32,383 bases of DNA from Bacteroidia bacterium (GTDB lineage: Bacteria; Bacteroidota; Bacteroidia; SpSt-205): positions 1 through 32,383 of the forward strand of contig JANXAJ010000024.1 in NCBI GenBank assembly GCA_025062295.1, given 5' to 3'. This document shows positions 22,293 to 28,506 of this stretch, one piece after another. The first letter of the stretch is position 1, and every line of letters begins with the position of its first letter. Both the position numbers and the translations under genes were made by a program. The notes beneath the pieces are model-generated. The model made no database searches and was not told where the DNA came from. It was given only the letters and a program-made list of their open reading frames with translations.

Positions 22293-23261
22293 ATGAATTT
22301 CTCAGGCTTGCGGTTTCTGGTAGTGGGGGATGTGATGGTTGATCGGTATTTGTATGGACGCGTTCAGCGCATTTCTCCGGAGGCTCCTGTGCCGATTTTA
22401 GAGCTTGAGAAAGAGGAGAATCGCTTGGGTGGAGCGGCGAATGTAGCATTTAATCTGCGTAGCTTACAAAGCCAAGTGGTATTAGCAGGTCTCATTGGAG
22501 AAGATCAAGCAGGGGTCTTTCTTCAAAAGGAAGCGCAGCGATGGCATATAGATACCTATGGACTTGTGATGGACCCTCATCGTCCTACTACTACCAAAAT
22601 TCGGCTTATAGCTCAGAAATCCCACCTTTTGAGGGTTGACCGAGAGAGCACTGCCTTTCCCTCTCCGACTGTGGCGGAGTCGCTCATGCTCAAGGTTCGT
22701 TCTCTTCTTCACTTGCCTCTGCATGGCGTAATCATACAAGACTATGACAAGGGTACCCTTACGCCAGAGCTGATTGAGGAAATTATCCGACTGGCGCAAG
22801 CACGCTCTGTCCCTGTGCTTGTAGACCCTAAGCGGCGACTCTTCTGGGCGTATGCAGGCGCCACCCTCTTCAAGCCAAACCTTCGGGAACTGGGCGAAGC
22901 CTTGCAAATCTCCCTCCTTGAAGCTCCCCTTGACGAGATCCAGGAAGCCGTATCGGTGCTTCGGCAACGGATGCCCCACACTTATACTGTCGTAACCCTC
23001 GGTGAGCGGGGGATTTTAGGGTATGGAGAAAAAGAAGGATTCATTCATATTCCCGCTCACTATCGCAACATCGTAGATGTATCTGGGGCAGGGGACACGG
23101 TAGTGAGCGTTCTCGCTGTAGGACTTGCTATGGAAATGCCCTTCCAGAAGACCTTGGCTTTGGCAAACTTAGCTGGAGGATTAGTGTGTGAATATGTAGG
23201 GGTGGTGCCTCTTCCTCGGGACCGGTGGCTGGAGCAAGCTCAAGCTGGCGGTCTGCTCTAA
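22293..23261 (+). CDS. rfaE1: D-glycero-beta-D-manno-heptose-7-phosphate kinase (HldE kinase domain)
   Basis: A PfkB/ribokinase-family sugar kinase of 322 residues that matches the N-terminal half of HldE, making heptose 1,7-bisphosphate for lipopolysaccharide inner core. Visible are the opening VVGDVMVDRYLYGRVQRISPEAPVP (split here at 10-34), the GGAANVA motif (46-52), the mid-region QDYDKG (149-154) and KPNLRE (194-199), and the catalytic site DVSGAGDT with D268. The adenylyltransferase domain of bifunctional HldE is absent, so a separate rfaE2 gene is expected elsewhere. It overlaps the end of the convergent LysM gene by four bases. Confidence 0.92.
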   Translation: MNFSGLRFLVVGDVMVDRYLYGRVQRISPEAPVPILELEKEENRLGGAANVAFNLRSLQSQVVLAGLIGEDQAGVFLQKEAQRWHIDTYGLVMDPHRPTTTKIRLIAQKSHLLRVDRESTAFPSPTVAESLMLKVRSLLHLPLHGVIIQDYDKGTLTPELIEEIIRLAQARSVPVLVDPKRRLFWAYAGATLFKPNLRELGEALQISLLEAPLDEIQEAVSVLRQRMPHTYTVVTLGERGILGYGEKEGFIHIPAHYRNIVDVSGAGDTVVSVLAVGLAMEMPFQKTLALANLAGGLVCEYVGVVPLPRDRWLEQAQAGGLL

Positions 23262-24922
23262 GGGATTTGCAGCTTTTGTCCGGGTTGGAGAGGGACTCGC
23301 GCATTCAGCTTATTGAGCCTGCAGAGGGCATCAACGGTGGTCCCGTACTTTTGAGCAATGCCCCAGAGAGATTCACCCGGGCGTACGATGTGCAGGCGGG
23401 AAGTAGGAGGAGCGGATGAAGCAGCCCCACTTGTAGGGATACGAAGGATTTGTCCGGCTTGAATGCGAGTACTGCGGAGGCGATTGTGGTACTGAAGAAG
23501 AGCAACTGTGGTCCCGTACCGATGGGCAATTTCCGAAAGGGTTTCCCCAGGCTTTACCTTATGATAGAGTAAAGGTGGAGGAGACGAGGTAGAGGGCGTG
23601 CCTCCTCCTTCTCCAGATGAAGGGGGAGGCAAAGTCACCGCTGCCTTCCCAGCGAAGCTTAGGGACGGTTCAGCTGGAAGAGAGACAGTAGCTTTTTCCC
23701 TTTCTAAGGAGGGAAGACTATCCGCAAGATAAAGCTGATAGGTGCGGAGAAGTGCAGTAGCAAGCATATGTCCTCTCAGAGCGTAACCCCTCGGTGTGAG
23801 AGAGAACATATCTGGCTGAATCAAGCCTCTGAGTCGCCAATCCCGAGCAGAGCCAAGAATTCCATAAGCGTCCCATACCGCTGCTCCTTTGTGAGCAGCA
23901 ATCCACCGGAGAAGTCTTGCTGTCTCTTCTACAAGCGGGAAAGGTCGCATCGCTCGATAAAAGTCCTGAGGTGTGATAAGTAAGAGCCCTGCTTCTGGGC
24001 AGGCTTCTTTTAGCTTTTCCAACAGCTCCTCCATAATGCTCCGAAGTTCGGAGAGGGAAGCTTTTGTTCCATGCAAATCGTTCCTGCCTAAGTCAAGGAC
24101 AATGAGGTCTGGCTGAAGGAGCTGTAGGCTTTCCTTTAGATATGGAAGTCGGCTCCATTGGGAGAGATGGATGTCCTTTATCCCTATGGTATGCCAAGTG
24201 ATGCCAGCAGCTCCCTCTTCTATGAATAGGCCATGAAGCTCTGCATACGAAAGAGAATCACCTCCTCCATTCCATCCAAAGCTCCCGCTCAGGCTTCGGA
24301 GGGGTTCGGGGAGAGTTAGGTCGATTACGCTAAGACCCTGAGGGAGGGAAGTCGTAATAGGTGGAAGACGATGATTTACAAAAACAGAACAGCGAATGCC
24401 AGGGTACAAGGTTCGCACCATTAATCGTAAATGAGCTCCCGCCGGTGCAGCAGACCCAGAAGAAGGGGACCATTGAATCATCCAGCGGGCTGCTGGATCG
24501 TAAGTTCCGATTCCTATACCAGTTGCGCCTAGTGGAAAGGGAGAGGTGCTCCACGAGGCGTGAGCTGCGAGCCACTGTCCCTCGCTCATGCTTACATATT
24601 CAGAGGGAGAAGGAATCCCTACAAGCTGAAATGGAAATATAAAGCCTTTTCCTCCTCCCCCCCAAGCCTTGTATAGCAAAGTATGAATTGCTTGAGTTTG
24701 AAATTCTATCCCAGGATGAAGCTCTCCAATATGAAGAATGCGAAGCTTCCTGCGATTCTGGCTTAGGTTTTCCCAGAAGGAAGAGAGGTTTCTGGCAAGA
24801 AATAGAAAGTTTGAATCGCTCCTGATGAACGGATAGCTCGTGTCTGAAACAAGGGAGATAGGCACTCCCTGAGAGTAAGCATAGAGAAGGACAGTACTTG
24901 CGATGAAGGGACGGAAGTTCAT
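23258..24922 (-). CDS. SGNH-hydrolase-like protein with two C-terminal LysM domains
   Basis: A 554-residue exported protein with a signal peptide (about 1-18), an SGNH/GDSL-like domain (about 40-400), a Pro/Ser/Gly linker (about 405-450) and two LysM peptidoglycan-binding domains (about 452-496 and 509-554). The SGNH fold is recognisable from block III GRND (279-282) and block V TPRGY (376-380). But block I, usually HIGDSH in this Bacteroidota group, reads HIGELH (G66-E67-L68), so the nucleophile Ser is Leu, and the block V His position (DxxH) is S374. The catalytic triad therefore looks lost, and the protein may bind peptidoglycan or a partner rather than cut esters. It overlaps ridA upstream by four bases. 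Confidence 0.85.
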   Translation of the reverse strand: MNFRPFIASTVLLYAYSQGVPISLVSDTSYPFIRSDSNFLFLARNLSSFWENLSQNRRKLRILHIGELHPGIEFQTQAIHTLLYKAWGGGGKGFIFPFQLVGIPSPSEYVSMSEGQWLAAHASWSTSPFPLGATGIGIGTYDPAARWMIQWSPSSGSAAPAGAHLRLMVRTLYPGIRCSVFVNHRLPPITTSLPQGLSVIDLTLPEPLRSLSGSFGWNGGGDSLSYAELHGLFIEEGAAGITWHTIGIKDIHLSQWSRLPYLKESLQLLQPDLIVLDLGRNDLHGTKASLSELRSIMEELLEKLKEACPEAGLLLITPQDFYRAMRPFPLVEETARLLRWIAAHKGAAVWDAYGILGSARDWRLRGLIQPDMFSLTPRGYALRGHMLATALLRTYQLYLADSLPSLEREKATVSLPAEPSLSFAGKAAVTLPPPSSGEGGGTPSTSSPPPLLYHKVKPGETLSEIAHRYGTTVALLQYHNRLRSTRIQAGQILRIPTSGAASSAPPTSRLHIVRPGESLWGIAQKYGTTVDALCRLNKLNARVPLQPGQKLQIP

Positions 24923-25296
24923 TCTCCTGCGTAAGCTATACCGCTAATCTCTATCCGAGCCCCGCGAGGCAGAGCAGCTACGGCAACTGTCTCTCGGGCA
25001 GGATAGTTTCCGTTTGGGAAAAATTTTTCATACACTGCATTGACAGCGGGGAAGAAAGCCATGTCGGTAAGATAAATTGTCACTTTGACTAAGTGAGAGG
25101 GAGTGGCTCCTGCAGAGCGAAGTACATGGAGGAGATTGTGCATCACGGTAGAGGCCTCTTCTTCTATGGAAGACTTCTCTAATGTGCCGTCGGGACGGAG
25201 CGCAATTTGTCCTGAGAGGAATATCCAAGGACCTACTCGTACAGCTGGGCTATAAGGGCCAACTGTCGGGACTTCAGGGGGGATAATGCGTTGCAT
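24919..25296 (-). CDS. ridA: RidA family reactive enamine/imine deaminase
   Basis: A 125-residue RidA (YjgF/YER057c/UK114) protein that hydrolyses reactive 2-aminoacrylate and related imines formed by PLP enzymes. The active-site residues are in place: Y15 in GPYSPA, R101 in YPARET and E116 in ARIEISG, which indicates the active RidA subgroup. The gene is first in a two-gene unit, its stop overlapping the start of the SGNH-LysM gene by four bases. It diverges from secG. A -7-like box TATTATTG (25301-25308, minus) ends four bases before the ATG. Confidence 0.94.
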   Translation of the reverse strand: MQRIIPPEVPTVGPYSPAVRVGPWIFLSGQIALRPDGTLEKSSIEEEASTVMHNLLHVLRSAGATPSHLVKVTIYLTDMAFFPAVNAVYEKFFPNGNYPARETVAVAALPRGARIEISGIAYAGE

Positions 25297-25687: not shown

Positions 25688-27691
25688 ATGGCAACGGTTT
25701 CAGCTACAAGCCCCACCTTCCGATACGAGCCCCGCGGGCTTTCTTCTGAGCTGCTCATTCGGCTCTACAAGGAGATGGTGTATGCTCGTCTTATAGAAGA
25801 AAAAATGCTCTCCCTCCTTCGTCAAGGTAAAGTGAGCAAGTGGTTTTCTGGGATTGGACAGGAAGCCATCGCAGTGGGTGCCACAATGGCACTGCGAGAG
25901 AGCGACTACATTTTTCCTCTTCATCGGAATCTCGGTGTTTTCACCAGTCGGGGCATGCCGCTGCGCCGTCTCTTTGCTCAATGGCAAGGGAAGGCTTCAG
26001 GCTTTACAAGAGGACGAGAACGGTCTTTCCATTTTGGGGCTCCAGAATATCGAGTAATAGGGATGATCTCCCATTTAGGGGCGATGCTCCCAGTGGCAGC
26101 AGGAGTCGCTTTAGCAAGTGTGCTGGATGGCTCAGATTTCATAGTGTTAGCTTTTATTGGCGATGGAGGCACCAGTGAAGGCGATTTCCATGAAGCCCTC
26201 AACGTAGCCAGTGTGTGGCGTCTCCCTGTCCTTTTCCTCATAGAGAATAATGGATATGGGCTATCTACTCCTACTTCAGAGCAATACGCCTGCAAGCGCC
26301 TTTCGGACAGAGCTGTAGGATATGGAATGGAGGGATACACCATAGAGGGGAATAATGTGCTGGAAGTCTATCATACTGTTAGGACTCTGGCTGAAAAGAT
26401 GCGTCAGGACCACCTCCCTCGCTTAGTGGAAGCTGTAACCTTTCGCATGAGGGGTCATGAGGAAGCCTCAGGTACAAAGTACATCCCTTCTTTTCTCTTT
26501 GAAGAGTGGAGCAAACGAGACCCTATCATCAACTACGAACGCTTTCTGATAGAAGCGGGGTACCTTTCAGCAGAGGAGAGTCAGCGTCTGCGGCGCGAGC
26601 TGAAAAAGAGGATAGAGGAAGAGATTCGCCCTGTTCTGTCTGAGCCAGATCCGACGCCGGAGCCAGCGGCAGTGTATGCTCCATTTGAGGATCCTTTGGT
26701 ACCGCCTCCGCCTGATGCGGGCTCACGCAACCTTCGGTTTGTAGATGCGATTGCCGAAGCCCTTCGCCAAGCGATGGAGCGCGATCCTCGCTTGATCCTC
26801 ATGGGTCAAGACATCGCCGAATATGGGGGAGTCTTCAAGGTTACAGAAGGATTAGTGGAGCAATTCGGAAAAGCGAGGGTCCGAAATACCCCTCTCTGTG
26901 AATCAGCCATTTTAGGGATGAGCTTGGGGCTTAGCTTGGGTAACTACTCCAGCATGGTAGAAATGCAGTTTGCCGACTTTGTCAGCTACGGCTTCACGCA
27001 GATTGCGAACAACTTAGCAAAAAACTACTACCGATGGGGAGTCGCCCCAAAGGTAGTAGTTCGCCTTCCCACAGGAGCTGGAGTAGGAGCCGGACCTTTC
27101 CACTCTCAGAGTTTGGAGGGAATTTTTCTCCATATTCCTGGTCTCAAGATCGTTTATCCCTCTACTGCCTACGATGCTAAGGGGCTTCTTACGACAGCTC
27201 TGAGGGATCCTAATCCCGTGTTATATTTTGAGCACAAAGCCCTTTATCGGAGCGTACAAGATGCTGTACCTGAGGCATATTACAACTTGCCCTTAGGGGT
27301 AGCTCGGGTAGCTCGGAGTGGTCGTGATTTATGCATTATTACCTATGGCATGGGTGTAGTAGAAGCGCTAAAGCTAGCTGATCGCCTCTCTCCCCAATGG
27401 GAAATAGAAGTGATAGACTTACGCACCCTTCTCCCCTGGGATCAAGAAGGAGTAGCGGCTGCTGTTCGGAAAACCCATCGAGTCCTTGTATTATATGAAG
27501 GTACTTACACGGGAGGAGTAGGTGCAGAGATTGCTGCTTGGATTGGGGAGCATCTTTTTGAATACTTAGATGCGCCCGTGATGCGGGTTGCTTCTCGGGA
27601 CACGCCTGTGCCTTTCAATCCAGTCTTGGAAGCAGACTTTTTGCCGTGGGGTCGTTTGCCCCAGGCTGTTGAAAAACTCCTTGCCTACTAA
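25688..27691 (+). CDS. Fused 2-oxoacid (branched-chain type) dehydrogenase E1 alpha/beta
   Basis: A TPP-dependent E1 component of 667 residues with alpha and beta subunits in one chain, as is common in Bacteroidota. The alpha part (about 20-325) holds the SKWFSGIGQEA motif, H79-R80, and the TPP site GDGGTSEGDFHEALN (158-172) through NN (187-188). The beta part starts near residue 349 (RFVDAIAEAL) and carries MGQDIAEYGG, the conserved Glu in PLCESAI and the RLPTGAG stretch. Similarity in the alpha part points to branched-chain 2-oxoacids (isoleucine, leucine and valine breakdown, branched fatty-acid primers), but pyruvate cannot be excluded. E2 and E3 genes are not here. An AAGAAGGA stretch directly before the ATG may act as a ribosome site. 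Confidence 0.93.
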   Translation: MATVSATSPTFRYEPRGLSSELLIRLYKEMVYARLIEEKMLSLLRQGKVSKWFSGIGQEAIAVGATMALRESDYIFPLHRNLGVFTSRGMPLRRLFAQWQGKASGFTRGRERSFHFGAPEYRVIGMISHLGAMLPVAAGVALASVLDGSDFIVLAFIGDGGTSEGDFHEALNVASVWRLPVLFLIENNGYGLSTPTSEQYACKRLSDRAVGYGMEGYTIEGNNVLEVYHTVRTLAEKMRQDHLPRLVEAVTFRMRGHEEASGTKYIPSFLFEEWSKRDPIINYERFLIEAGYLSAEESQRLRRELKKRIEEEIRPVLSEPDPTPEPAAVYAPFEDPLVPPPPDAGSRNLRFVDAIAEALRQAMERDPRLILMGQDIAEYGGVFKVTEGLVEQFGKARVRNTPLCESAILGMSLGLSLGNYSSMVEMQFADFVSYGFTQIANNLAKNYYRWGVAPKVVVRLPTGAGVGAGPFHSQSLEGIFLHIPGLKIVYPSTAYDAKGLLTTALRDPNPVLYFEHKALYRSVQDAVPEAYYNLPLGVARVARSGRDLCIITYGMGVVEALKLADRLSPQWEIEVIDLRTLLPWDQEGVAAAVRKTHRVLVLYEGTYTGGVGAEIAAWIGEHLFEYLDAPVMRVASRDTPVPFNPVLEADFLPWGRLPQAVEKLLAY

Positions 27692-28506
27692 TGCTAAACG
27701 TTAGCAATTATATCGGGCTTTTTACGGGGCTTCTGATTGCAGGTATGGGAGTCTATCTCCTTTATGCGGACTCCATTCGCCTTGGGCTTCCTACCTGGCT
27801 TCAACTGAGCGCACCGATTTTCTTCATAGGATATGGAGCGATTCGGTTTGGATTGAGTCTCTATCACCTCCTCAGACACCGTCGTCCTTCGGGCTCTGAT
27901 ATGGTGCTTGTAGTAGGGGTACTCCTTCTGAATGCCTGCCGAAGGGGGCCCGAAGCTAATTTGCGTGTGCGCTTTGATTATGTGGGCGAATGCGCCTCTT
28001 GCCCTTTGGCTCGGATGGACTCTATCCTGCGGGTATTTTTTCCCTTAGGTGTAGTAGCTGTCTCTTTGGATAGCGCGCAAGTTCAAGTAGTTTTAGATTT
28101 AGATACCCACTATGTCCGTTTGGATACCGTAAAGCATGTCCTGCTGGGCTTTGGATATGAGGTGGATGAAGAGATAGCAGTTGATCCTATTCTTTCGCCC
28201 TGCTGTGTTTCTGTTTCATCTGAAGTGGCGAGCGGAAGTTCGCTCATCGTCGGTGTCTCTCCCTCAGAAGTTCATGCGGAAATGAGCCTGCTAGAGCGAG
28301 AGCTCGAGTCAGAGCTTGGAGAATCGCCTTCCATCAACTTAGATACTGAGCTCAATCTGGAAGAAGACTTGGGATTAGAAGAATTGGACTTGGAGAGCGG
28401 TTTAGAAACGGAGGGCTTGGGCTTAGAGGAGCTGGACCTGGAATTGGAACTTGAACTTGATGAACCTAAAGCAAAGGGGACGCCAAAACCTCAACCGAAG
28501 AAATGA
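27691..28506 (+). CDS. Composite membrane / HMA-like CxxC / acidic-tail protein
   Basis: A 271-residue protein that I do not recognise as a whole. Residues 1-62 hold two membrane helices (about 7-25 and 40-60) and end in a basic RHRR. Residues 71-83 look like a lipoprotein signal (MVLVVGVLLLNAC, C83 in LNAC). Residues 92-160 fit a heavy-metal-associated fold: C101-x2-C104 in GECASCPLARMD, beta strands around VVAVSL and VQVVLDL, and a final GYEVDEE. C171-C172 follow. Residues 198-258 are an acidic Leu/Glu repeat (EELDLE twice), then a basic Lys/Pro tail. It may be one fused protein, or a membrane protein plus a lipoprotein from an internal start at 27901. The start overlaps the E1 stop by one base (TAATG). 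A metal-binding role is inferred. Confidence 0.75.
   Translation: MLNVSNYIGLFTGLLIAGMGVYLLYADSIRLGLPTWLQLSAPIFFIGYGAIRFGLSLYHLLRHRRPSGSDMVLVVGVLLLNACRRGPEANLRVRFDYVGECASCPLARMDSILRVFFPLGVVAVSLDSAQVQVVLDLDTHYVRLDTVKHVLLGFGYEVDEEIAVDPILSPCCVSVSSEVASGSSLIVGVSPSEVHAEMSLLERELESELGESPSINLDTELNLEEDLGLEELDLESGLETEGLGLEELDLELELELDEPKAKGTPKPQPKK

Follow-up and report, generated by a model that had tools for sequence, protein, structure and literature searches.

The window analysed here, a 32,383-nucleotide stretch of DNA from a Bacteroidia bacterium (contig JANXAJ010000024.1), carries on its minus strand a gene for a degenerate Ape1-type SGNH protein, together with the upstream gene of the same operon:

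24919..25296, minus strand: ridA (Rid family), upstream gene of the operon (TIGR00004, 117.7 bits, above the cut-off)
23258..24922, minus strand: open frame of 554 aa coding for a degenerate SGNH protein of Ape1 type that ends in two LysM domains
24869..24922, minus strand: hydrophobic N terminus, a putative signal peptide covering roughly residues 1-18
24719..24727, minus strand: block I, which aligns as G66-E67-L68 with GDS of relatives and so lacks the nucleophile Ser
24218..24622, minus strand: predicted beta-rich module (residues 101-235) inserted after block I and before block II, at the position of the Ape1 carbohydrate-binding module
24170..24178, minus strand: block II, K249-D250-I251 (NGA or SGA in relatives), oxyanion Gly lost, by alignment with relatives
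24077..24088, minus strand: block III, G279-R280-N281-D282, with Arg in place of Thr280 and the oxyanion Asn retained, by alignment with relatives
23801..23812, minus strand: block V, D371-M-F-S374, which by alignment with relatives retains the Asp but not the catalytic His
23432..23569, minus strand: LysM domain 1, residues 452-497 (Pfam)
23261..23395, minus strand: LysM domain 2, residues 510-554 (Pfam)

Pfam assigns Lipase_GDSL_2 (4.5e-10) and LysM (2.3e-32) to the protein, the latter in two stretches (PF01476, 111.1 bits against a cut-off of 20.9), so the two LysM domains that the first-pass annotation placed after the SGNH domain are present. These domains predict a LysM peptidoglycan-binding protein, with binding itself putative. 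An AlphaFold model built from 12 aligned sequences (mean pLDDT 77.4, pTM 0.68) has residues 1-27 below a pLDDT of 50 and a linker of low confidence between the SGNH part and the LysM domains.

The closest SGNH structure by sequence is 4k3u (E 1.1e-16), and comparison of the model using VIA-align gave meningococcal Ape1 (4k3u_B) as the best match (Z 31.3, rmsd 2.8, 331 residues) and Campylobacter Ape1 (8gld_A) as the second (Z 28.4), with the next entry at only Z 16.3. The alignment with meningococcal Ape1 spans residues 39-398, and the Ape1 fold, an SGNH domain with an inserted module, is present in the model. Foldseek supports the Ape1 match at 3.4e-21 and gave weaker matches of the insert to CBM6/36/61-type modules. 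By sequence, the protein is evidently descended from an Ape1-type peptidoglycan O-acetylesterase carrying two LysM domains.

The Ser-His-Asp triad and its Gly/Asn oxyanion hole are incomplete in the window protein. Alignment with relatives identifies three losses (S68L, G250D and H374S), while Asn281 and Asp371 are retained; at block II the relatives within the genus read NGA, SGA, AGA, VGA or NGL. The first-pass annotation had read GEL in place of GDS in block I and S374 in place of the catalytic His in block V, and both readings hold. Its count of two residue losses is right for Ser and His but falls one short, having missed the change from Gly to Asp in block II. Similarly, the GRND and TPRGY (residues 376-380) stretches it described as intact are both there, but GRND itself carries a substitution, T280R, in a column that is otherwise invariant and reads GTND in genus relatives. 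Its broader proposal, a pseudoenzyme with a preserved fold and wall-binding domains, is supported by the predicted Ape1-like structure, the residue losses and the LysM domains. Misalignment of block I or V can be ruled out, as phmmer pairs IGELH with IGDSH and PDMFSLTPRGY with KDGVHFSAKGY of meningococcal Ape1, and the ortholog rows agree.

An ortholog is encoded in all 13 genomes of the order that were searched. The records matching 11 of these are MAGs, and several of the isolate names among the order's MAGs presumably come from hot springs; a scan of genome contigs recognised no further species of the genus. In 11 of the 13 genomes the Ser, Gly, Asn, Asp and His are all intact. The two exceptions are the window protein and its ortholog in genome G004 (L014, 551 aa), in which S68, G250, N281 and H374 are gone, four of the five catalytic positions. 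Inspection of positions 67-68 and 374 across homologs found both Ser and His in 25 of 27 aligned rows, including every one of the 15 from families elsewhere in the class, with the same two proteins as exceptions and no local misalignment. Two loci with in-frame stops in the match (L030 and L033) were omitted from this alignment; the G050 gene behind L033, read again as L214, is intact. A 28th ortholog, from G006, is split by frameshifts in the assembly and has both Ser and His. The G007 ortholog (L012/L063) has an intact triad, reads NGL rather than NGA in block II and changes faster than the other intact rows; relaxation could have just begun in it.

Ser, His and the oxyanion Gly are described as defining the SGNH mechanism (PMC9487903), and judged by its residues the window protein can no longer work by Ser-His-Asp catalysis. 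It is very improbable that it is still an enzyme with a different residue set: Asp371 and Asn281 remain, but the three defining residues are all lost and the replacements in the G004 ortholog differ (E67/L68 in the window protein against D67/Q68, D250 against N250, N281 against Q281 and S374 against R374). A local paralog supplying the esterase activity is rejected as far as Pfam can see, since a second Lipase_GDSL_2 gene was not found in the genus genomes and the single match in each is this gene.

The gene order CoaBC, AroK, pyruvate dehydrogenase E1, SecG, RidA and the SGNH gene is common to relatives. In every one of the 12 genomes checked from the genus and family, RidA precedes the SGNH gene; a four-base overlap (ATGA) joins the two genes in 10 of these, those of the window and G004 included. 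The coupling to ridA, for which the first-pass annotation saw no obvious reason, is on comparison of these genomes an old operon that also occurs where the enzyme is intact. Elsewhere in the window, positions 22293-23261 encode an HldE-like sugar kinase (311 bits against the cut-off of 345 of the heptose-phosphate kinase model), and positions 27691-28506 hold a 271-aa ORF that is a conserved neighbour of the ridA/SGNH operon; it has no Pfam match at E 0.01 and is acidic, with a leucine-rich C-terminal repeat of the LGLEELDLE type.

Peptidoglycan receives O-acetyl groups from the MBOAT protein PatA together with PatB, which is an SGNH protein from the DUF459 family, and Ape1 strips them off again (PMC12148441, PMC9487903, PMC5077204). 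An MBOAT protein (PF03062) is encoded in 10 of the 13 genomes of the order, the copies within the family being 64-74% identical to that of G002. Nine of the ten have a C-terminal FXYXXF, described as the acyl-shuttle motif of PatA (PMC12148441), and the tenth gene is cut by a contig end. In nine genomes the MBOAT gene is preceded by one for an SGNH protein with a weak match to DUF459, reported as the PatB family (PMC9487903); the pair is therefore PatA-/PatB-like. PF03062 found no MBOAT protein in the window's genome (G000), G004 or G008, and a PatA protein of the genus used as query found nothing in these three even at E 10. A PatB search to E 10 also found nothing in G000, G004 or G008, and missed the divergent G012 copy too. 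Completeness is 99.25% for G000, 98% for G004 and 81% for G008. The G008 ortholog has an intact triad and no PatA/PatB pair, an exception explained only by incompleteness, as the whole neighbourhood, ActF and the membrane-fusion gene included, is absent from this genome.

The sites where the pair would be expected are present in both genomes with a degenerate protein. The window's genome has the genes after which G005 carries PatA/PatB, and the pair is absent. In G004, the small gene normally just upstream of patB still adjoins ActF, and the gene normally after patA survives at another place on that contig, again without the pair. The expected place in L161 and in L156 gave no convincing relic of patA or patB, the best E being 0.049 and 0.084. 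The single-contig G006 genome (L069, L150, L160) has patB and the ape1 ortholog split over several frames with their motifs intact, and these splits are probably assembly errors.

The loss of catalytic residues and the absence of PatA/PatB coincide in the same two genomes, an association of two species; with G008 set aside and relatedness ignored, the chance that two genomes picked at random among 12 would coincide in this way is 1 in 66. Acetylation of the OatA type is rejected for the order on the strength of a PF01757 search, which found an AT3/OatA-type protein in none of its 13 genomes and in 10 of 14 control genomes. Among the gene sets searched, no known route to O-acetyl peptidoglycan appears in the window's genome. 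Absence of PatA/PatB may not equal zero O-acetylation, because Campylobacter patA and patB deletions are reported to have retained 2-3% (PMC5077204).

The link to MBOAT genes extends to other families of the class, where 18 regions were compared. An MBOAT gene lies near the Ape1-like SGNH gene in 15 and is fused to it in one, and a second SGNH gene is directly upstream of the Ape1-like gene in 13. In the 13 loci of these families that were read through (L201-L205, L207-L214) both SGNH genes retain the catalytic Ser and His. The two genes are different and are followed by MBOAT in 12 of these loci, with none nearby in L204, and the upstream SGNH is of a divergent type (GDSQ/GDSM/GDSF, RG.SG, DYTHF). 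In G023 (L031, L212) the Ape1-like SGNH and MBOAT parts share one ORF of 921-948 aa, an esterase-acyltransferase fusion.

The two degenerate proteins appear not to come from sister species. In a species tree of six concatenated proteins, built without the pyruvate dehydrogenase of G012, which at 36% identity is probably a paralog, the window's genome groups with G002, G003 and G005 (100/99), and a clade of G000 and G004 is rejected (AU p 0.00175, or 0.00689 without two poorly filled rows). The gene tree, made without the frameshifted G006 gene, joins the window and G004 proteins at 99/99, and the two alone share 20 columns. This pattern would fit one degenerate allele that passed from lineage to lineage by gene exchange, a history compatible with our functional reading below but one we think rather doubtful. 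Both proteins sit on long end branches (0.79 and 2.05; median 0.5), so attraction is possible, and trees constrained to keep the window protein in its species clade pass the AU test (p 0.07, 0.36 and 0.19 with three column sets). They are also only 40% identical, and in both genomes the gene lies after ridA and pyruvate dehydrogenase. Two losses with convergent drift, or one exchanged degenerate allele, could each account for the data.

To compare constraint, columns that do not vary among nine intact rows were counted; residues 60-400 contain 109 of them and the LysM domains 35. The window protein has changed 28 of the 109 and 3 of the 35 (Fisher p 0.034), and the G004 protein 47 and 5, respectively (Fisher p 0.002); in the window protein the LysM changes are 3 of 20 columns in LysM 1 and 0 of 15 in LysM 2. 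Within residues 60-400 of the window protein, 3 of 5 catalytic positions have changed against 25 of 104 other invariant positions, so that the catalytic residues are not clearly worse hit. These counts show no enrichment of loss at catalytic residues, and nothing therefore indicates selection for inactivity as such. Second codon positions of the window gene differ from those of G005 by 0.28 and third positions by 0.62, with part of this history predating the loss and saturated third positions giving no clean dN/dS. Both frames are free of stops and frameshifts (554 codons in the window, 551 in G004), for which a rough estimate of the chance under neutral drift of that size is about 2e-4 and 1e-7, respectively. 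The protein seems to have been kept while its catalytic half relaxed, because the LysM columns are little changed, third codon positions have changed more than second positions and an open frame is unlikely under neutrality.

A vestigial gene, in which the esterase is merely decaying after PatA/PatB loss and has no present function, would account for the faster change of both degenerate proteins seen in their end branches, and for erosion that is broad across the catalytic half and reaches beyond the triad. We consider it unlikely, since neither lineage has acquired a stop or frameshift, most LysM columns are kept in both, second codon positions change far less than third, and the ATGA overlap with ridA is preserved. 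Less likely again is a neofunctionalised lectin, the first-pass idea in a broader form, whose SGNH pocket would hold some other wall sugar or modification and leave it uncut. The kept fold, the retained Asn281 and Asp371, the carbohydrate-binding-like insert and the two LysM domains would all suit such a protein, but the pocket positions differ between the window and G004 proteins, so no new shared pocket is visible. The first-pass suggestion that the protein recognises acetylated wall sugars is itself unlikely, because the window's genome has no known maker of them, lacking PatA, PatB and any AT3/OatA protein.

An intact gene without catalytic residues or partner genes suggests a second, non-catalytic job. 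Residue losses, Ape1 ancestry, absence of the pair and uneven constraint, as read from sequence, point to a loss of acetylation followed by catalytic erosion of an Ape1-type esterase, the protein being retained as a wall-bound non-catalytic partner, and we regard this course of events as fairly probable. The PatA/PatB pair would have been lost in the window's lineage, and the wall would then probably be free of the esters once removed by the esterase, because their makers were gone. Since the esterase would now have no substrate, its catalytic half would be free to erode, with loss of Ser, His and the oxyanion Gly. The gene would have been retained, with its open frame and ridA coupling preserved and its LysM half nearly untouched, for a wall-tethered partner of peptidoglycan hydrolases, most likely of a lytic transglycosylase. 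Ape1 may already have had such a partner role beside catalysis. In Neisseria, LtgA and Ape1 are reported to act jointly, each raising the activity of the other (PMC7083599), and DipM, with its catalytically inactive LytM domain, is described as stimulating several autolysins (PMC10336132). By analogy with these we propose an adaptor role; its partner, a wall lacking acetyl groups and the order of events are also inferred. More tentatively, an ancestral non-catalytic wall function of Ape1-type proteins could alone have kept the protein in this genus after acetylation was lost, possibly twice in different lineages, which would make it a LysM-anchored SGNH pseudoenzyme regulating autolysins.

What appears in this genome, as far as its gene content indicates, is a natural dead Ape1 in an organism apparently rid of peptidoglycan O-acetylation; the literature searched, which excludes most subscription papers, contains no report of a natural pseudo-Ape1. 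Roles of Ape1 beyond deacetylation are hard to probe where its deletion alters wall acetylation, and a genome seemingly without acetylation yet with a dead Ape1 separates the two. The window protein would be a natural separation-of-function protein, with that of G004 as a second example, and offers a test of whether selection acts on the protein itself, by way of its binding to peptidoglycan and hydrolases.

Ape1 of Neisseria meningitidis (4k3u) and Campylobacter jejuni (8gkd, 8gld) likewise has a beta-rich module set into its SGNH domain, and these structures align with the window model over 331-349 residues (Z 28-31). Compared with them, the window protein has lost the Ser, the His and the block II Gly and gained two LysM domains, and PatA and PatB, which accompany Ape1 in both species, were not found in its genome. 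Closer relatives are the intact Ape1-LysM orthologs of the genus (for example that of G005, 49% identity), which have the same domain order, ridA operon and neighbourhood; they differ in keeping GDSH, GTND and DxVH or DxIH and, except in the incomplete G008, PatA/PatB. The G004 ortholog shares the loss of Ser, Gly and His, the retention of LysM and the lack of a detectable PatA/PatB pair, but has also lost Asn281 and carries other replacement residues. The LytM-type proteins DipM, NlpD and ActS likewise combine a wall-hydrolase fold without catalysis with LysM domains, and are described as regulating autolysins (PMC10336132, PMC8360153). The likeness is solely one of how the proteins may work, as the metallopeptidase fold LytM has no relation to SGNH, and a Pfam search of the window protein to E 1 found LysM and GDSL families but not the peptidase M23 that would indicate a degenerate LytM domain. 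On the more tentative reading above, the window protein would be a pseudoenzyme autolysin regulator built on the SGNH rather than the LytM fold.
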